A stretch of 36,896 bases of DNA, taken from contig JAKOVY010000057.1 in NCBI GenBank assembly GCA_029781825.1, positions 1 to 36,896 of the forward strand, read 5' to 3'. A model generated the notes under the pieces. The model was not told the DNA's origin. It searched no databases and was given only the letters and a program-made list of their open reading frames with translations. The translations under genes and the position numbers were made by a program. This DNA is from Bacillota bacterium (lineage in GTDB: Bacteria > Bacillota > Syntrophomonadia > Syntrophomonadales > DTU052). This document shows, in pieces, positions 17,122 through 36,896 of this stretch. Position 1 is the stretch's first letter. Every line of letters starts with the position of its first letter.

Positions 17122-17604
17122 ATGAAATGTCCTTTTTGTTCAGAATTGGAAAGCAGAGTCTTGGATTCACGCACTACCGATGAGGGAACGGTCATCAGGC
17201 GACGGAGAGAGTGTGCCGCATGTAAGCGGCGCTTTACAACCTATGAGCGCATCGAGGAGCGTCCTCTTATGGTGGTTAAGAAGGAGGGGAACAGAGAGGC
17301 ATTCCAAAGGGACAAGCTAATGCAGGGCATACTTAAAGCAATAGAAAAAAGGCCGATTGGCATGGATACAGTTGAGGCCGTAGTAGGAGAGATTGAACGC
17401 GAGCTTCGAGATTCGTATGACAAAGAGGTGAGCAGTCAGGTAATCGGTGAGAAAGTAATGGACAGGCTTCGCATGATCGATGGAGTTGCCTATGTTAGGT
17501 TTGCGTCGGTTTACCGCCAGTTTACCGATGTAAAGGGATTCGTGGAAACCGTGGAACAGCTGCAAAAATATCAGGATTCCGGGGAGGGGAACAGTAGTGT
17601 TTGA
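17122..17604 (+). CDS. nrdR: Transcriptional repressor NrdR
   Basis: NrdR senses ATP/dATP and represses ribonucleotide reductase genes. The 160-residue protein has the N-terminal zinc ribbon with Cys3, Cys6, Cys31 and Cys34 and the basic strand RRRREC, then an ATP-cone domain (about 49-139) starting [13 protein letters not shown] and ending in [11 protein letters not shown]. Family length is normal. GAGGG precedes the ATG at 17122. The stop overlaps nrdD by 8 bases, and two NrdR-box-like sites lie at the promoter, so the operon is very probably autoregulated. Confidence 0.97.
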
Positions 17605-19615
17605 AAAAATCAGGAAGCGGGATGGACGCGAGGTACCGTTTGATCCTTCAAAGATAACCGAAGCCATATTCAAAGCCGCACGAGCCCAGGGAGGGGAGAA
17701 TTACCAGAAAGCCCTCGAACTTACCCTTGAGGTCATGAGAGTGCTGGGGGAAAAGTATGAGGGAGACGTTTTTTCGGTTGAAGATGTTCAGGACATAGTG
17801 GAAAAAGTCTTAATCGAGAATGGTCATGCCCGCACCGCGAAGGCCTACATACTGTACCGAGCTCAGAGAACCAGATACCGGGAAGGCAAGTCCGAGCTGA
17901 TGGATGTGGTTGAGGAGATCCTGAAGGAGACCAACCGGGAAAATGCCAATGTGGGTAATTCTCCGTCGGCCAAAATGCTGCAGATTGCCAGTGCCGCTTC
18001 CAAACAGTATTACCTGGATCGCCTGATCCCTCCCGAATTTTCCAATGCTCACCGCCAGGGAGATATCCATATTCATGACCTTGATTTTTACGGCAAGACT
18101 CTGAACTGCATACAGATACCGCTTAGAAAGCTCCTGCAGGAAGGGTTTAACAACGGTCACGGCTATATAAGACCTCCAAAAAGGCCGGCGTCGGCCACCG
18201 CATTGGCGGCCATCATCCTGCAGAGTTCACAAAACGACATGTTCGGCGGGCAGTCTTTCCCCTTCTTTGACCGGGATTTAGCCCCCTTTGTTGAGAACGC
18301 CAGCGACGAGGAAACCTACCAGGCTATGGAAGCCCTGGTATACAACCTCAACAGCATGCACTCTCGGGCCGGGGCGCAGGTGCCGTTTTCCTCGCTGAAC
18401 CTGGGTGCGGATACTTCCGAAGCCGGACGGCGGGTAGCGAGAAATCTCCTGCTCGCTTATGAAGCCGGCCTGGGAAGAGGGGAGAACCCCATTTTCCCCA
18501 ATATCATTTTCCGGGTGAAGGAAGGTGTCAACCTTAATCCGGACGATCCCAACCACGACTTGCTGCTGCTGGCCATGAGGGTGGCGGCCAAGAGAATGAA
18601 CCCGACTTTCAGCTTTATGGACTCATCATTCAACAAACAGTATGGAGATGAGGTAGCCTACATGGGCTGCCGGACCCGGGTGATAGCGAATATCCATGGA
18701 CCGGCAGTTACTGAGAGGCGGGGGAATCTGTCCTTTACCACCATCAATTTGCCCCGGTTGGCTTTGAGAGCCAAGGGCAGCCTGGGAGAGTTCTATCGCC
18801 TTCTGGAGTCAACCGTCTGGCTGGCCTGTGAACAGCTTCATCACCGTTACCGGGTTCAGGCCGCTCTCAAGGTTAAGGACCTGCCGTTTGTTATGGGACA
18901 GCACCTCTACATGGGATCGGAGGGGCTTGGCCTCTGTGATCCGATTGAAGAGGCGGTAAAGCACGGAACCCTGTCGGTAGGCTTTATCGGCCTGGCGGAA
19001 ACCCTGGTCTGCCTTACCGGAAAACACCATGGGGAGTCGAACGATTCGCAGGCCATAGGCATATCCATTGTCCAGTTCATGCGTCAGCTTGTTGATCGGG
19101 CGGCTGAACAGTTTAACTTAAACTACACCCTGATCGCAACACCGGCCGAAGGCCTTTCGGGGCGTTTTATCGCTATGGACCGAGAACGCTTCGGAGTTAT
19201 TCCCGGGGTTACCGACGGCCAGTACTATACCAACAGTTTTCACATACCGGTCAATTACGATATATCGATATTTGAAAAGTTGTCCAGGGAAGGACCCTAT
19301 CACAAGTACACCAATGCCGGGCATATAAGTTACGTGGAATTCCCGGCTCCTCCGGTTCACAACGGAGAAGCCATACAGGCCATTATCAAGCATATGAATG
19401 ACTGCGACATGGGTTATGCCGGCATCAACTTCCCCATCGACTTCTGCGAGAGTTGCGGATTCTTGGGGGTTATCGACCACGATAAATGCCCCAAATGCGG
19501 AGGCGACGAGATAAAACGGGTTCGAAGAATTACCGGATATCTGTCCACAGTGGACCGGTTTAACGATGCCAAGATAGCCGAACTCAAGAATCGCAGACCC
19601 CACCGGCTGTCTTGA
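17597..19615 (+). CDS. nrdD: Anaerobic ribonucleoside-triphosphate reductase NrdD
   Basis: NrdD reduces ribonucleoside triphosphates to deoxy forms with an oxygen-sensitive glycyl radical. The 672-residue protein has an N-terminal ATP-cone (about 2-92) for allosteric control, a long catalytic barrel with conserved [13 protein letters not shown], a C-terminal zinc site of two CxxC pairs (CESC and CPKC) and the glycyl radical loop RRITGYLST with Gly647. The start is GTG 17597 behind GGGGAGGGG. It is translationally coupled to nrdR upstream; the activase nrdG follows at once. Length and motifs are complete, so it should be active. Confidence 0.97.
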
Positions 19616-19626
19616 GGAGGGATACG

Positions 19627-20130
19627 GTGAAAATGAGGGTCAGCGGGTTTACCCGTGAAAGTGTGGTAGACGGCCCGGGAATCCGGGCCGTGGTTTATGC
19701 CCAGGGATGTCCACATCACTGTCCGCACTGTCATAACCCGTCCACCTGGGATCCCGAGGGAGGATATGAGCTCGATATCGACGACATAGTAGGTCTGGTC
19801 AGGGATATTGGCCTCTTGCGGGGAATAACCCTATCCGGAGGAGAACCTTTCCTCCAGGCGGGACCGGCTGCGGAACTGGCCGCCCGCATAAAGGATCTGG
19901 GCCTGGATGTGGTGGTATATACGGGTTATACTTTTGAGGAACTGCTGGAAATGAGCCGGAACGACCCGGCAGTGGCCAGGCTACTTAATCTGACCGATAT
20001 CCTGATTGACGGGCCTTACCGGCATGAGGAGCGCGATTTGAGCCTTGCTTTTCGCGGTTCGAGAAATCAGCGGGTGATCGACGTCAGGCGAAGCCTCGAG
20101 GAGGGGCGAGTTTGTACACTGGACTATTGA
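19627..20130 (+). CDS. nrdG: Anaerobic RNR activating enzyme NrdG (radical SAM)
   Basis: NrdG uses S-adenosylmethionine and a 4Fe-4S cluster to make the glycyl radical on NrdD. The 167-residue product has GFTRESVVDGPGIRAVVYAQGC and the radical-SAM cysteines Cys28, Cys32 and Cys35 in CPHHCPHC, then HNPSTWD, LSGGEPFLQ and DILIDGPY, all usual for the family. The frame reaches TTG 19612 inside nrdD, but GAGGAGG at 19614-19620 points to GTG 19627. A second candidate is ATG 19633. It is the last gene of the nrd operon. Confidence 0.95.
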   Translation: MKMRVSGFTRESVVDGPGIRAVVYAQGCPHHCPHCHNPSTWDPEGGYELDIDDIVGLVRDIGLLRGITLSGGEPFLQAGPAAELAARIKDLGLDVVVYTGYTFEELLEMSRNDPAVARLLNLTDILIDGPYRHEERDLSLAFRGSRNQRVIDVRRSLEEGRVCTLDY

Positions 20131-30375: not shown

Positions 30376-30654
30376 TCAGATAGAACTTGTGACATACCAA
30401 AGGCTGTGAAGGGGACGAGTAACTTCCCGGGCGGAGCAAGCGAGTCTGGGACGGTGTGAGCCAGGCCGAAGCCAGGATGTTGAAGATCACCCCGGAGCTT
30501 TTAACCGAACTCGGGCTTGAATCCGGCCCGACAGTAGGCTTAAACGGCTTTTCCCCGTTATCGGAAAATCGAGTGAACAGAGTCAACTCTGGTTAAATAG
30601 GGTGGTACCGCGGAAGATTACCTTTCGTCCCTAAGCGGGGATGAAAGGTTTTTT
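30376..30654 (+). promoter_or_regulatory. Isoleucine T-box riboswitch leader of ileS
   Basis: The leader senses uncharged tRNA-Ile and controls read-through into ileS. It contains the stem I landmarks GACGAGTAA (30414-30422 region), GGTGTGAGCC, and a specifier-loop context TGAAGATCACCCCGGAGC, where ATC at 30486-30488 is an isoleucine codon. The T-box AGGGTGGTACCGCG begins at 30599; its TGGT bulge would pair with the ACCA end of a tRNA with discriminator A, as expected for tRNA-Ile. The competing terminator follows at 30620-30654. The left limit is estimated from the promoter. Confidence 0.93.
30620..30654 (+). terminator. Regulated terminator of the ileS T-box
   Basis: ACCTTTC (30620-30626) pairs with GAAAGGT (30643-30649); inner bases 30627-30632 pair with 30637-30642, including two G-U pairs, with a 4-base loop and six T residues at 30649-30654. 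Part of its 5' region would be drawn into the antiterminator when uncharged tRNA binds. Confidence 0.92.
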
Positions 30655-30682
30655 AGATTTTACGGTCTTAAGGAGTGTTGGT

Positions 30683-33463
30683 ATGGCAAAGGGCAAATAT
30701 GATCACACCATTAATCTCATGAAAACCGATTTTCCCATGCGAGCCAACCTCCCGGAAAGGGAACCGGAGATCCTGAAATTCTGGGAGGAAATTGGCATCT
30801 ATCAGAGAGTCCAGGAACAGAATCAAGGACTGCCCAAATTCATACTCCATGACGGCCCCCCGTATGCCAACGGGCACATCCACCTGGGGCATGCCCTGAA
30901 CAAGGTACTTAAGGATATTATCATCAAGTTTCACACCGCCACCGGTTATGACGCCCCTTATGTTCCCGGATGGGACACCCACGGCCTTCCTATTGAACAG
31001 CAGGCCATCAAGGCGCTGGGTATTGACCGGCACCATACGGATGTGGTGGAGTTCAGGCGCTACTGCAAGGAGTACGCCTTGAAGTGCATGGATATCCAAC
31101 GCCAGGAGTTTAAGCGTTTGGGGGTAAGGGGTGACTGGGAGCATCCTTATCTTACCCTGGAACCCGGCTTTGAAGCCGTTCAAATCGGTGTGTTCGGGCA
31201 GATGGCCAAAAAAGGATATATCTATCGGGGTCTGAAAACGGTTTACTGGTGCTGCGATTGTGAAACCGCCCTGGCGGAAGCCGAGATCGAGTATGCAGAC
31301 AAGCAGTCCGATTCCATATATGTAAAGTTTCCCTTTAAGGATTCCAATGACCTGTTCCCGGTAGAAGGGGCCTTCATGGTCATCTGGACCACCACACCCT
31401 GGACCCTCCCTGCCAATACCGGGATCTGCCTGCATCCGGAGTTTGATTACGTTCTGGTTCAGGTTGACGGGGAGAGGTATGTTGTAGCCCAGGAACTCCT
31501 GGCCAAAGTGGCCGAGGAGGTGGGGTGGACGGATTACCGGGTGATCAACAAGTTTAAAGGTCGGGATTTGGAGGAGGCGGTCTGCCGGCATCCCTTTATA
31601 GACCGGGATTCAATCGTGGTCTGCGGTGAGCACGTCACCCTTGATCAGGGAACCGGCTGTGTGCATACGGCTCCCGGGCATGGAGTCGAGGACTTTGAAA
31701 TCGGCAAAGCCTATGGACTGCCGGTGATTTCCCCCTTGGATGACCGGGGAGTGTTCACCAGCGAAGGCGGCAGGTACGAGGGAATGTTCTGCTATGACGC
31801 CAACCCGGTCATCATTAAGGACCTGTCCGATCTCAACATGCTGGTAAAAGCCGATCGCATCAGCCACCAGTACCCGCACTGCTGGAGGTGCAAGGAGCCC
31901 ATCGTCTTCCGGGCTACTGAACAGTGGTTTGCATCCATCGAAGCCTTCCGCCAGGATATACTGAAGAGCATAGACAACGTCAGGTGGATACCGGCCTGGG
32001 GAAGGGACCGTATCTACAACATGATCGAGGATCGCGGGGATTGGTGCATTTCCCGGCAGCGTACCTGGGGAGTGCCGATACCCATATTCTACTGTGATGA
32101 CTGCGGCAAGACGATCATCAATGATGAGACTATCAGTCACCTGCAGGAGATATTTGCCGTTGAAGGAAGCGACGCCTGGTTTGCACGACCGGCTGAGGAG
32201 CTTCTGCCGCCGGGATTTGTCTGCGGCGACTGCAAGGGGACCAGTTTTTCCAAAGAGACCGATACCATGGATGTCTGGTTTGACTCCGGTTCCAGCCACA
32301 TGGCGGTTTTGGAAACCAGGCCGGACCTGCGGTGGCCGGCTGACCTTTATCTGGAAGGCAGCGATCAGCATCGCGGGTGGTTCAATTCTTCCATCAGTAC
32401 ATCGGTGGCGGTAAGAGGGGTTGCTCCGTATCGCAGTGTCCTCACCCACGGGTTCCTGGTTGATGAACAGGGGCGCAAGATGTCCAAGAGCATGGGCAAC
32501 GTGGTGGATCCACTCGAAATGATTGAGGAGCTGGGGGCCGACATATTGCGGTTGTGGGTCTCTTCGGTTGACTACCGCACGGATGTATCGGCGTCGGACC
32601 GGATTATGAGGCAGCTGGCAGAAGCCTATCGCAAGATCCGCAACACCTGCAGGTTCATCCTCGGCAATCTCTTCGACTTTGATCCGGATAGAGACCGGGT
32701 CAGTCCGGAACAGATGAATGAGCTTGATCGGTGGGCGCTGTTAAAACTCAACAAGCTGATAGCGAGGGTTACCAGGGCCTACCGCAATTATGAGTTCCAC
32801 CTGGTTTACCATTCGATACACAATTTCTGCACGGTGGATATGAGCGCCATTTATCTGGATATAATCAAAGATCGACTGTACACCAGCCACAGCAACAGCC
32901 TGGAGAGGAGAGCGGCCCAGACCGTCATGTATGATGTGATTCATGCCCTGGTCCGGATACTCTCACCCATTTTGGCCTTTACCAGTGAAGAGATCTGGTC
33001 ATATCTGAAGCGTGAAGGCGATCCGATAAGCGTGCAGCTGGCGGGATGGCCCACCGCGGATGAGAGCACTCAGGACCCGGAACTGGAAGCCAAATGGGAG
33101 CGGATATTCAAAGCCAGAGAAGTAGTGTCCAAAGCCCTGGAAGAAGCGCGCCGCAGCAAAATTATCGGCCATTCGCTGGGAGCCAGCGTGCACATCGTGG
33201 CCAGTTCCCAGTGGCTTGAAGACTTGCGGTCGGTTCCCGATCTTGATAAGATTTTCATAGTCTCCGGGGTGTCCCTGGAACCGGGTGAGTCCCGGGAAGA
33301 CGGATATGTGAGCCTGGAAGAGGTTCCCGGAATCTGGGTTAAGGTGCAGCAGGCAAGCGGCAGCAAGTGTGAGCGGTGCTGGGTTTACAGCCCTACCGTG
33401 GGCGAGGATGAAACCCATCCCACCCTGTGCAGCAGGTGCCTTGATGTCGTTACCCGGCTGTAA
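30683..33463 (+). CDS. ileS: Isoleucyl-tRNA synthetase IleS
   Basis: IleS charges tRNA-Ile and edits mischarged valine. The 926-residue protein is complete: HIGH-type motif PYANGHIHLGHAL (His67-Leu-Gly-His70), the CP1 editing domain with TTPWTLPANTG and GTGCVHTAPGHG, WFDSGSSHMAVL, the KMSKS motif at 599-603, anticodon-binding domain, and a C-terminal zinc finger CERCW...CSRC. This is the bacterial type usual in Firmicutes, not the eukaryote-like mupirocin-resistant type. Start ATG 30683 has AAGGAG at 30670-30674; the in-frame ATG at 30641 lies inside the T-box terminator and is rejected. Confidence 0.97.
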   Translation: MAKGKYDHTINLMKTDFPMRANLPEREPEILKFWEEIGIYQRVQEQNQGLPKFILHDGPPYANGHIHLGHALNKVLKDIIIKFHTATGYDAPYVPGWDTHGLPIEQQAIKALGIDRHHTDVVEFRRYCKEYALKCMDIQRQEFKRLGVRGDWEHPYLTLEPGFEAVQIGVFGQMAKKGYIYRGLKTVYWCCDCETALAEAEIEYADKQSDSIYVKFPFKDSNDLFPVEGAFMVIWTTTPWTLPANTGICLHPEFDYVLVQVDGERYVVAQELLAKVAEEVGWTDYRVINKFKGRDLEEAVCRHPFIDRDSIVVCGEHVTLDQGTGCVHTAPGHGVEDFEIGKAYGLPVISPLDDRGVFTSEGGRYEGMFCYDANPVIIKDLSDLNMLVKADRISHQYPHCWRCKEPIVFRATEQWFASIEAFRQDILKSIDNVRWIPAWGRDRIYNMIEDRGDWCISRQRTWGVPIPIFYCDDCGKTIINDETISHLQEIFAVEGSDAWFARPAEELLPPGFVCGDCKGTSFSKETDTMDVWFDSGSSHMAVLETRPDLRWPADLYLEGSDQHRGWFNSSISTSVAVRGVAPYRSVLTHGFLVDEQGRKMSKSMGNVVDPLEMIEELGADILRLWVSSVDYRTDVSASDRIMRQLAEAYRKIRNTCRFILGNLFDFDPDRDRVSPEQMNELDRWALLKLNKLIARVTRAYRNYEFHLVYHSIHNFCTVDMSAIYLDIIKDRLYTSHSNSLERRAAQTVMYDVIHALVRILSPILAFTSEEIWSYLKREGDPISVQLAGWPTADESTQDPELEAKWERIFKAREVVSKALEEARRSKIIGHSLGASVHIVASSQWLEDLRSVPDLDKIFIVSGVSLEPGESREDGYVSLEEVPGIWVKVQQASGSKCERCWVYSPTVGEDETHPTLCSRCLDVVTRL

Positions 33464-33511: not shown

Positions 33512-33796
33512 TTGAATGAAAACGGGCAGAGGCTGATTATCACCGTAATCGGGCGCGATCGCATCGGGATAATCGCCGCTATTTCAAAGATTCTGGCGGA
33601 TGCGCGCATCAACATCCTGGACATAAGCCAGACCATCATGCAGGGGTTCTTTACCATGATCATGGTAGTTGATGCCAAAGAGAGCACTCTTGATACCGCC
33701 GAGTTAAACCAGAAACTGACTGAAAAGGGCAGGGAACTGGGTCTGGTGATTACCGTTCAGCATGAAGATGTTTTTCACTACATGCACCGCATATAA
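33512..33796 (+). CDS. ACT-domain protein (UPF0237 family)
   Basis: A 94-residue protein consisting of one ACT domain: LIITVIGRDRIGIIAAISKILADARINILDISQTIMQGFFTMIMVVD (pattern vtV.G.DrpGIiA.vs..La....NI.Disqtim...F.M.m.vd). This is the UPF0237 family, which pairs with the UPF0210 gene next door in many bacteria and archaea. Small-molecule sensing is expected of ACT domains; the ligand is unknown. The TTG start at 33512 has only a G-rich, weak ribosome site. It lies 48 bases after ileS, so it may share its transcript. Confidence 0.88.
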   Translation: MNENGQRLIITVIGRDRIGIIAAISKILADARINILDISQTIMQGFFTMIMVVDAKESTLDTAELNQKLTEKGRELGLVITVQHEDVFHYMHRI

Positions 33797-33811
33797 ATGC
33801 ACCCGGTGCAT
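33797..33811 (+). promoter_or_regulatory. 15-base palindrome between the ACT and UPF0210 genes
   Basis: ATGCACC-C-GGTGCAT is a perfect palindrome with 7-base arms, starting at the base after the ACT gene stop. With a single central base it is better suited to a dimeric DNA-binding protein than to an RNA hairpin. No regulator is recognised. Confidence 0.4.
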
Positions 33812-33835
33812 ATCAATGCCATAATTGAGACGAGG

Positions 33836-33858
33836 GATCGCCGTAGGGCGATTCTTTG
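33836..33858 (+). terminator. Possible weak terminator after the ACT gene
   Basis: ATCGCC (33837-33842) and GGCGAT (33847-33852) form a 6-bp stem with a 4-base loop, extended by one G-U pair, followed by TTCTTTG. The tail is short, so termination would be partial. It would end the ileS-ACT transcript before the next promoter. Confidence 0.4.
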
Positions 33859-33871
33859 TGCTAAAGAGAAG

Positions 33872-33899
33872 TTGACGAGCAGCCCTTTACGGTTATACT
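33872..33899 (+). promoter_or_regulatory. Sigma-A-type promoter of the UPF0210 gene
   Basis: TTGACG (33872-33877), 16 bases, TATACT (33894-33899): each hexamer differs from consensus at one position. It lies 33 bases before the ATG at 33932, and inside the longer open frame from 33797, which supports the downstream start. Confidence 0.7.
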
Positions 33900-33931
33900 G
33901 TAGTCTAAATCCAGGAAATGAGGTGCCCATT

Positions 33932-35299
33932 ATGCCAATGACGCTGGCGCCGTCCGAGATACTGGAAACGGTTAAGATGCTTCAACTGCAAAACCTGGAC
34001 ATACGCACCATTACCATGGGGATAAGCCTTCGAGCTTGTCGCAGCGACAGTCTGGAGCAGACCAAGAAAAATATCCTTGACACCATAACCAGCAAAGCGG
34101 AAAAACTGGTTAGAACTGGAGAGGATATCGAAAAAGAATATGGAATACCCATAATTAACAAAAGAATATCGGTTACCCCTTTGGCCATCATTGCCGACGG
34201 TTTCGGGGTTGATGAAATGGTTGAACTGGGATGCTGCCTGGACGAAGCCGCCCGGCAGTGTGGTGTTAACTTCATCGGCGGTTATTCCGCTCTGGTTCAC
34301 AAGGGAATGACCGAGGGTGACCTGGCCCTGATTAAATCCATACCGAAAACCTTGAGCCGGACCGAAAGGGTATGCGCGTCGGTTAATATCGGAACCACCA
34401 AAGCGGGAATAAACATGGAGGCTGTCTCCCTGATGGGGCACATCATCAAAGAGACGGCGGAAATGACCGCAGACCGGGATGGGATCGGCTGTACCCGACT
34501 GGTGGTATTCTGCAATGCGCCTGAGGATAACCCCTTTATGGCCGGAGCTTTTCACGGGGTAGGGGAGCCTTCGGCGACTATTAATATAGGGATCAGCGGT
34601 CCGGGGGTGATTCTGGAAGTCGTCAGAGGGCTGCCGGATGCCGATCTGGGGACTCTTTCCAATGAGATCAAAAAGACGGCCTTCAAGATAACCCGCATGG
34701 GAGAGTTGGTTGGCCGGGTGGCCAGCAGCCGCCTGGGAGTACCCTTCGGCATCGTCGACCTGTCACTGGCCCCCACACCGGCGGCGGGTGACAGCGTGGC
34801 CGGCATACTGGAGGCTATGGGATTGGAAAGGTGCGGTGCTCCCGGAACCACCGCCGCGCTCGCTCTGCTCAACGATGCTGTGAAAAAGGGAGGAGCTATG
34901 GCAACTTCCTACGTGGGAGGGCTTTCGGGTGCGTTTATTCCGGTAAGCGAAGATGCGGGGATGATCGAGGCGGTTGCCGAGGGGTACCTTTCACTGGAGA
35001 AGCTGGAGGCTATGACCAGCATCTGTTCGGTAGGACTGGATATGATTGCTGTTCCCGGCGATACGCCGGTCAGCACCATATCGGGAATTATTGCCGACGA
35101 AGCGGCCATCGGCATGATAAACCGCAAGACTACTGCGGTGCGGATAATCCCGGTTCCCAATAAATCAGAGGGGGAATGGGTAGAGTTTGGGGGCCTGCTG
35201 GGCAGGGCCCCGATCATGTCCGTTAACAAGGGTGATTCTCGTCCTTTTATTGACCGCAAGGGAAGGATACCGGCTCCAATCCAGGCATTAAACAACTGA
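33932..35299 (+). CDS. UPF0210/DUF711 (PFL-like) family protein
   Basis: A 455-residue protein of the UPF0210 family, annotated in places as PFL family from fold similarity to pyruvate formate-lyase. Recognisable blocks: [69 protein letters not shown] and [23 protein letters not shown]. No glycyl-radical motif is seen, so radical chemistry is not implied. The frame is open to 33797, but GAGGTG at 33920-33925 and a promoter at 33872-33899 support ATG 33932. Linked to the ACT gene upstream, as is typical of the family; function unknown. Confidence 0.91.
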
Positions 35300-35311: not shown

Positions 35312-35995
35312 ATGATATCCATAGAAGAATACGAGCAAGTGCTCGCCATTCGCATGGCCCGGAGGATACTGGGATATGAGCTTTCGCGGACTTATTTGTA
35401 CCTGGTTGACGGGCTGTTGATTGATACCGGTCCGCCCAGATGGGGCGACCGGCTGGTAAAGGTAATGACCGGTCATGAAATCAAGCTGATTGTGAATACG
35501 TATTATGCGATAGAGAATATAGGCAACAATGCTCTCCTGCAGCGGACGTTCAGTGTTCCGATCAAGGCGCATAAAGAAGCCGCTGAAAAGATAAGGCACC
35601 CGCGTCGGGAAGGAGCAGTGAAGCGCTGGATGTGGGGGCAGCCCGCGTCCAGCAAGGTATCGAAGCTGAAGAATTACATCCGTTTCAAGGATTACTATTT
35701 CCGAGTCCTGGAGACGCCGGCAATCGGGCCCGGGCACATCTGCCTCTTTGAACCCGAACGGGGGTGGCTGTTCAGCGGCCGTCTGCTGGTAAAAAGCGAA
35801 ATCAAAAAAGGCCGGGACGCAAAAGAACTGGCCCGGGATTTGAAACGACTGCTGTCCCTTGAACCCGGGACGGTTTTCTGTGCCGGTCATGGGGTCTTGA
35901 CCGACGGCTTGGCGGTTATTGAGTCCAAGCTGAGGGCCTTGGAGATGGGAATCCGTGAAGAAATATGGGATGACGCCTGGTCTTTAAGCAACTGA
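35312..35995 (+). CDS. Metallo-beta-lactamase-fold protein with degenerate metal site
   Basis: A 227-residue protein whose framework is MBL-fold: TYLYLVDGLLIDTGPP (28-42), a segment VNTYYAIENIGNNALL (61-76), GPGHICLFEPERGWLFSGRLL (139-159 region) and FCAGHGVLTDG (189-199). In active members the second segment reads THxHxDHxGN; here the ligands are Tyr64, Ala66, Glu68 and Asn69. The His of PGHS is Ile138 and the Asp of SGD is Arg158; only His193 remains. So it probably does not bind two metals. Start ATG 35312 has AAGGA 8 bases upstream; ATG 35303 overlaps that site. It lies 12 bases after the UPF0210 gene. Confidence 0.82.
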   Translation: MISIEEYEQVLAIRMARRILGYELSRTYLYLVDGLLIDTGPPRWGDRLVKVMTGHEIKLIVNTYYAIENIGNNALLQRTFSVPIKAHKEAAEKIRHPRREGAVKRWMWGQPASSKVSKLKNYIRFKDYYFRVLETPAIGPGHICLFEPERGWLFSGRLLVKSEIKKGRDAKELARDLKRLLSLEPGTVFCAGHGVLTDGLAVIESKLRALEMGIREEIWDDAWSLSN

Positions 35996-36108: not shown

Positions 36109-36444
36109 ATGAGAGATAATCTGGAACCGGTTACCGCCGGGCTCATTAGACGACTAAACGAAAAAATTGATGAGCTGTCAGTTAACATGGAGAAGATGAA
36201 ACTGGCGGAATACATCGAGATGATGGAAAACCCTCGGAGGCTCTTGTATATGAACTTTATGATGGGTCTGGTACGAGGGTTTGGCATGGCTATTGGATTT
36301 ACCATTCTGGCAGCCCTGGTAGTGTGGTTTATGCAGAGGTTGGTGGTGCTAAACCTGCCGTTGATCGGCGATTTCATAGCAGATATTGTCAGACTGGTTC
36401 AGTACGAGTTGCAGGTGGGAGGGACAAATCTAGGCGGAGTGTGA
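36109..36444 (+). CDS. DUF5665 membrane protein
   Basis: A 111-residue protein: an N-terminal helix with coiled-coil character (about 8-30), the motif KLAEYIEMMENPRRLLYMNFMMGLVRGFGMAIGFT (pattern lAeYv.....prr.l..Nf..Gl.rG.G.aiGft, 31-65), a membrane helix (about 62-84) and a second hydrophobic stretch LNLPLIGDFIADIVRLVQ (86-103). It matches DUF5665, common in Clostridia, function unknown. GAGAAAGGA precedes the ATG. It is 5 bases from the next start, so the two are cotranscribed. Confidence 0.85.
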   Translation: MRDNLEPVTAGLIRRLNEKIDELSVNMEKMKLAEYIEMMENPRRLLYMNFMMGLVRGFGMAIGFTILAALVVWFMQRLVVLNLPLIGDFIADIVRLVQYELQVGGTNLGGV

Positions 36445-36448
36445 TCAA

Positions 36449-36896
36449 TTGGATAGAATCGAACAGCAACTGCTGCAGAAGAAGCTGAGATTACAGAAGG
36501 CCATAAAGCGCAAAACGGAAACAGCTTCTATTCCTCTGAGTGAAATGACTGATGAGCTATCGTTGTATGATCAGCACTCAGGCGACCTGGGCACGGAGAC
36601 CTTTGAGCGCGAAAAGGATGCGGGCATTCAGGAAATGCTGGAAGCGGAACTGGCTCGGGTAGATGATGCGCTCGAGCGGCTAAGAACCGGGGAGTACGGG
36701 ATCTGCGTAATGTGCGGCCAGCCTATTGATCCCAAGAGGCTGGAAAGACTTCCGGAAGCCGACCTGTGCATCACATGTGCCCGCAAGCAAAGGGATCGTT
36801 TCATCCGGCCTCCGGAGGAAGAGATCCTTGATATGCATGAGATTGATGCCAAAGGAGACCAGTTTGAGGTCGCCGGTTATGATCTGTTCGATGAGT
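36449..36896 (+). CDS. yteA: DksA/TraR-family zinc-finger protein YteA (cut at window end)
   Basis: The visible 149 residues begin at TTG 36449 behind GGCGGAG. A coiled-coil region (about 1-80, including DQHSGDLGTETFEREKD) leads to a C4 zinc finger with Cys86, Cys89, Cys107 and Cys110 (CVMCGQPI and LCITCA), then the YteA-type tail PPEEEILD. The DLGTETFEREKD block is typical of the Firmicute YteA group rather than proteobacterial DksA. DksA binds RNA polymerase; whether YteA does is not established. The frame runs off the window. Confidence 0.9.
   Translation, partial: MDRIEQQLLQKKLRLQKAIKRKTETASIPLSEMTDELSLYDQHSGDLGTETFEREKDAGIQEMLEAELARVDDALERLRTGEYGICVMCGQPIDPKRLERLPEADLCITCARKQRDRFIRPPEEEILDMHEIDAKGDQFEVAGYDLFDE

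Follow-up and report, generated by a model that had tools for sequence, protein, structure and literature searches.

A probable metal-free metallo-beta-lactamase-fold pseudoenzyme in a T-box ileS operon of the Syntrophothermus family

Is a metallo-beta-lactamase (MBL)-fold protein that has lost its metal ligands an enzyme on its way out, or a protein kept for something other than catalysis? The question is raised by a gene in a 36,896-nt stretch of DNA from a Syntrophothermus sp. genome (hereafter the window, meaning the whole stretch analysed), whose reading frame starts with an ATG at position 35312 and ends with a stop codon at 35993-35995. A first-pass annotation of the letters had proposed a binding or regulatory pseudoenzyme, a proposal that the shared ligand loss, the signature of selection, the predicted fold, the presence of intact paralogues and the lack of a rebuilt site all support at the level of sequence. 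We put a rough probability of 0.6 on the reading that the gene encodes a metal-free, non-catalytic binding or regulatory MBL-fold pseudoenzyme descended from an active enzyme at the same locus.

Table 1. Coordinates of the pseudoenzyme gene, its former metal site and its operon neighbours in the window.
Feature	Position	Strand	Basis or remark
T-box leader 5' of ileS, probable operon leader	30397..30635	+	RF00230, 105.3 bits
ileS, isoleucyl-tRNA synthetase	30641..33463	+	
ACT-domain protein, PRK00194 type	33512..33796	+	
DUF711 / PRK05313 protein	33797..35299	+	stop overlaps the pseudoenzyme ribosome-binding site
Shine-Dalgarno AAGGA, 8 nt 5' of the pseudoenzyme ATG, overlapping the DUF711 stop codon	35299..35303	+	sequence
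MBL-fold pseudoenzyme gene, 227 aa	35312..35995	+	ORF, Pfam, predicted structure; one locus in five f1 genomes
Old HxHxDH motif at residues 64-69, now Y Y A I E N	35501..35518	+	H64, H66, D68, H69 99-100% conserved in 87 homologues
Clade-specific conserved basic stretch, residues 78-131	35543..35704	+	R78, K85, K88, R95, R98, R105, K115, K118, R131
Former PGH ligand = Ile138	35723..35725	+	
Former bridging Asp = Arg157 (Ser in sister genus)	35780..35782	+	
His193 of 'GHG', a later gain and no inherited ligand	35888..35890	+	N/Q/H in orthologues; non-His in close intact relatives
DUF5665 protein	36109..36444	+	directly 3' of DUF711 in most genomes without the MBL gene
YteA-like DksA/TraR zinc-finger protein, truncated where the window ends	36449..36895	+	

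The reading frame encodes a genuine MBL homologue, which matched PF00753 (Lactamase_B) with 38.2 bits against a cut-off of 22.7 (E 1.9e-9). It also matched solved MBL-fold proteins such as TTHA1623 (2zwr, 7e-11), and the best profile match among solved structures was LACTB2 (4ad9), which differs in being an intact MBL-type protein and shows an identity of only about 22% when matched by structure. An AlphaFold2 model built with 95 homologues (pLDDT 92.8, pTM 0.90) adopted the alpha-beta-beta-alpha MBL fold, and a Foldseek search with this model returned metallo-beta-lactamases (1.3e-12; TM about 0.62-0.68), so that the framework called intact from its motifs was recovered in the prediction; an intact homologue of the same locus (L011) gave a similar predicted model. 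The protein consists of a single MBL domain and does not contain a beta-CASP domain of the CPSF100 type. Automatic annotation would label it a metallo-hydrolase on account of its score above the Pfam cut-off, yet none of the metal-holding residues remain in it.

The motif residues first reported, Tyr64, Ala66, Glu68, Asn69 and Ile138, were correct on the protein sequence, while the arginine at the SGD position is residue 157 and had been misnumbered as 158. The count of six ligands lost out of seven also required revision, as proteins of this subfamily use six metal ligands instead of the classical seven, and here all six have gone, leaving none of the HxHxDH residues, PGH histidine or bridging aspartate of an MBL metallo-hydrolase. 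The seventh classical ligand, the histidine of GHG, does not occur in intact proteins closely related to this one (CASNGV, CASGA, CSSGxV), and the position of His193 varies among the orthologues (CTAHGV, CADQGV, CARNGV, DSSNGL), with Asn or Gln in three of them, which argues that His193 is a secondary arrival. The same two observations rule out the seventh ligand as a retained feature, and 'GHG' is not the preserved framework element for which it had been taken.

Across 87 other homologues from Bacillota, Chloroflexota, Thermodesulfobacteriota, archaea and other groups, the six ligand columns were 99-100% H, H, D, H, H and D, the sole exception being one Asp-to-Glu replacement. Given that the DNA patterns used for fetching relatives left out the ligand residues, intact ligands were not selected for in this set; in a scan of genome contigs, a query with the single protein returned nothing and a query with an alignment gave relatives. 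Against this background, the window's protein and its four orthologues kept 0 of 6 ligands versus 23 of 32 other family-conserved columns (Fisher p 0.0018), the 23 being unchanged in all five proteins, a contrast greater than chance would give.

A further reading is that the protein is still an enzyme, either metal-free or with a site rebuilt from Glu68, His87, His142, Cys144 or His193, and the first four of these residues are indeed invariant in all five pseudoenzymes. However, His87, His142 and Cys144 show much the same conservation in relatives with an intact site and are therefore not a replacement, and His193 is not conserved. A rebuilt site had been named at the outset as an observation that would speak against a pseudoenzyme; we looked for one among the family-conserved sites and found no newly fixed metal-capable residue except Glu68, so no replacement metal site is visible, and continued catalysis appears very unlikely. 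At the old site itself, the residues drift from one orthologue to another (TYYAIEN, TYYSLEN, TYYASEN, TYHRPEN, TSCLPES), so that a new site is not apparent there either.

The ligand loss is common to all five genomes of the family (f1), with open frames throughout, answering in the affirmative the question of whether the loss is shared. Besides the window's own genome, the five include three more from the genus (among them Syntrophothermus sp. DTU052 and UBA1445) and a single genome from a sister genus; the orthologues are 70-84% identical within the genus and 52% identical in the sister genus. An identical locus order (ileS-ACT-DUF711-[MBL]-DUF5665) was found in a family assigned to a different class (f63), in which two genomes carry an intact enzyme at the locus (L046 in G137 and L047 in G173). 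This intact pair shares with the pseudoenzyme its gene order, its clade, its basic stretch and the absence of the C-terminal ~50 aa, but differs in keeping all six ligands (HHHEDH, PGH, GD). Close orthologues with an intact HxHxDH motif would likewise have counted against a pseudoenzyme; the closest intact copies at the locus come from the other class, with 37-40% identity, and, judged by homology, they represent the ancestral condition and leave the pseudoenzyme reading standing. Together with the sampled family, these intact locus members indicate descent from an enzyme with intact catalytic residues.

The third f63 copy, in G206 (L078, Bacillota bacterium Ch109), resembles the pseudoenzyme in its locus, in the loss of every ligand and in retaining the fold framework and most basic sites, but differs in its family and in its replacement residues (NTSGTSGC, SAPE, SGT). 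In a gene tree built without the ligand columns, the eight locus genes formed one clade (99/99), within which the five pseudoenzymes grouped together (100/100) and G206 stood beside the intact pair (93/74); taken by itself, this tree is compatible with one common origin for the six degenerate copies (AU p 0.353). In a DUF711 tree, G206 grouped with the other class (100/99). Because of this placement and the synteny, rather than the gene tree, two independent ligand losses, one in the Syntrophothermus family and one in G206, are probably the better reading. The G206 copy (L078:5980-6645) also lacks a stretch near its C-terminus and has a long branch, and may be further towards decay.

In G096, and in two families belonging to the same order as the window's genome (f2 and f3), the MBL gene is missing and DUF711 lies next to DUF5665. 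The corresponding gap in G006 (L234, about 1471-2907) holds two opposite-strand frames, neither of them an MBL gene, one of which looks nitroreductase-like by eye. The locus thus offers a natural before-and-after series of intact enzymes, two apparently separate losses and gene-less families between the same two neighbours, and such a series lets one ask what an MBL-fold enzyme did besides catalysis. We raise, as a tentative and rather doubtful suggestion, that in this operon, at a single position beside DUF711 and downstream of a T-box ileS, an MBL enzyme was turned into a metal-free binding protein twice independently; if so, the locus itself would select a non-catalytic MBL partner, and the binding function would predate the loss of catalysis.

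Selection on the gene was estimated with our own NG86 implementation, using unsaturated pairs only. The three such pairs of pseudoenzymes gave dN/dS values of 0.23, 0.29 and 0.27, with z above 4.6 against neutrality, and no stop codons or frameshifts were found in the pseudoenzyme across the five genomes, where a gene free of selection should gain about 9 new stops per 0.37 neutral substitutions per site. The neighbouring genes had lower values, from 0.05 (DUF711) to 0.20, by which measure the constraint on the pseudoenzyme is moderate. Protein distance relative to DUF711 was 3.2-5.5 for the pseudoenzymes versus 3.5 (2.5-4.9) for the intact pair, with overlapping intervals, and by this rate constraint on the pseudoenzyme is not clearly weaker than on the intact copies. 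The gene has been kept by selection after the catalytic residues were lost, and the low dN/dS, the lack of stops and the preserved structural sites agree with the original description of a selected loss rather than decay.

A relic in slow decay would nevertheless account for part of this picture: the enzyme would have become dispensable and would drift under weak residual constraint, the source of which might be, for example, translational coupling or polar effects within the ileS operon; this fits a dN/dS above that of the neighbours, the drifting ligand site, the missing gene in sister families f2 and f3, and the lost segment and long branch of the G206 copy. Such a relic should not, however, have passed through so large a divergence in five genomes with zero stops or frameshifts, and the departure from neutrality, a DUF711-relative rate that does not clearly exceed the intact pair's and the sparing of structural and basic sites by substitutions make slow decay unlikely in our view.

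The pseudoenzyme could also be the non-catalytic subunit of a pair, as in eukaryotes, where CPSF100 and INTS9 are inactive MBL subunits of RNA-processing complexes and CPSF100 shows no bound metal (PMC4819959). The pairs CPSF100/CPSF73 and INTS9/INTS11 provide the precedent (PMC4819959), and intact candidate partners are at hand: the search for an active paralogue found two with intact ligands on other contigs of the window's genome (L002 on C83 and L003 on C111), and the f1 relatives carry intact paralogues too. However, these paralogues are only 25-29% identical and lie away from the locus, and similar intact genes occur also in genomes without the locus gene, so that a CPSF100-like pairing with one of them seems distinctly improbable. 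CPSF100/Ydh1 and INTS9 resemble the pseudoenzyme in having an MBL fold with lost catalytic residues, but differ in acting alongside a catalytically active MBL subunit, within complexes that process RNA 3' ends, and, for CPSF100, in the beta-CASP domain; no close sequence relation between them and the pseudoenzyme was found.

PqsE offers another comparison, being an MBL-fold enzyme that acts through protein binding and whose catalysis is dispensable for its regulatory role (PMC9600345). It is a distant profile match of the pseudoenzyme, but differs in that it is an active thioesterase whose metal site is functional, in its larger size with a C-terminal extension and in its binding to RhlR; the ligands of a PqsE-type metal centre are absent in the pseudoenzyme. 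A limited literature search found no bacterial MBL pseudoenzyme of comparable kind, the documented cases found being eukaryotic RNA-processing subunits. The window's protein is a new bacterial example among known MBL-fold pseudoenzymes, with an unusually clean before-and-after locus.

What the protein might bind is hinted at by a basic stretch between residues 78 and 131. All nine of its basic sites, which were chosen after the fact, are present in seven of the eight locus members and seven of them in the eighth, while any of the 87 other homologues has at most 5; the net charge of the locus clade is +3 to +11, and that of the relatives averages -2.7. When rare sites were instead picked on the two intact f63 proteins, 6 of 11 basic ones were kept in all five pseudoenzymes, as were 1 of 4 acidic and 0 of 6 hydrophobic ones. 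Given that sites picked on the intact proteins are still basic in the pseudoenzymes, the stretch appears to predate the ligand loss and to have been retained. Its composition suggests binding to something anionic and indicates no particular partner, and the conservation may reflect one ancestral event only.

Taking the pseudoenzyme as a binding or regulatory protein, we propose the following course of events. An active MBL enzyme would have entered the ileS operon between DUF711 and DUF5665, an arrangement still seen in the two genomes of the other class. The Syntrophothermus family would then have lost all six metal ligands while the fold, the structural residues round the site and the basic stretch stayed under selection, leaving a protein that would work by binding, as a scaffold with an anion-friendly surface, and no longer by hydrolysis. 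Candidate partners are a protein made from the operon, an RNA or an anionic metabolite. The first candidate would be DUF711, the stop codon of which overlaps the ribosome-binding site of the pseudoenzyme.

The neighbours had been described as a cluster of proteins of unknown function, which was partly right: the gene order is ileS - ACT - DUF711 - [MBL] - DUF5665 - yteA, so that DUF711 and DUF5665 proteins are accompanied by an isoleucyl-tRNA synthetase with a T-box, an ACT-domain protein and a DksA/TraR-like YteA. A T-box leader also stands in front of ileS in G002 and G004. If its genes are co-transcribed, the whole operon would sense uncharged tRNA through this leader; a simple promoter and terminator scan of the operon gave no more matches than shuffled sequence. 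The DUF711 frame begins with an extension of ~45 codons (33797-33935) 5' of the region that matches homologues, and its first ATG is probably not the true start. Ribonucleotide reductases and glycyl radical enzymes share a ten-stranded barrel superfamily with DUF711 (PMC4390871). The window also encodes, at 17597-20130, an anaerobic ribonucleotide reductase NrdD with an adjoining radical-SAM activase, and DUF711, of the same RNR/PFL barrel superfamily, lies further along.
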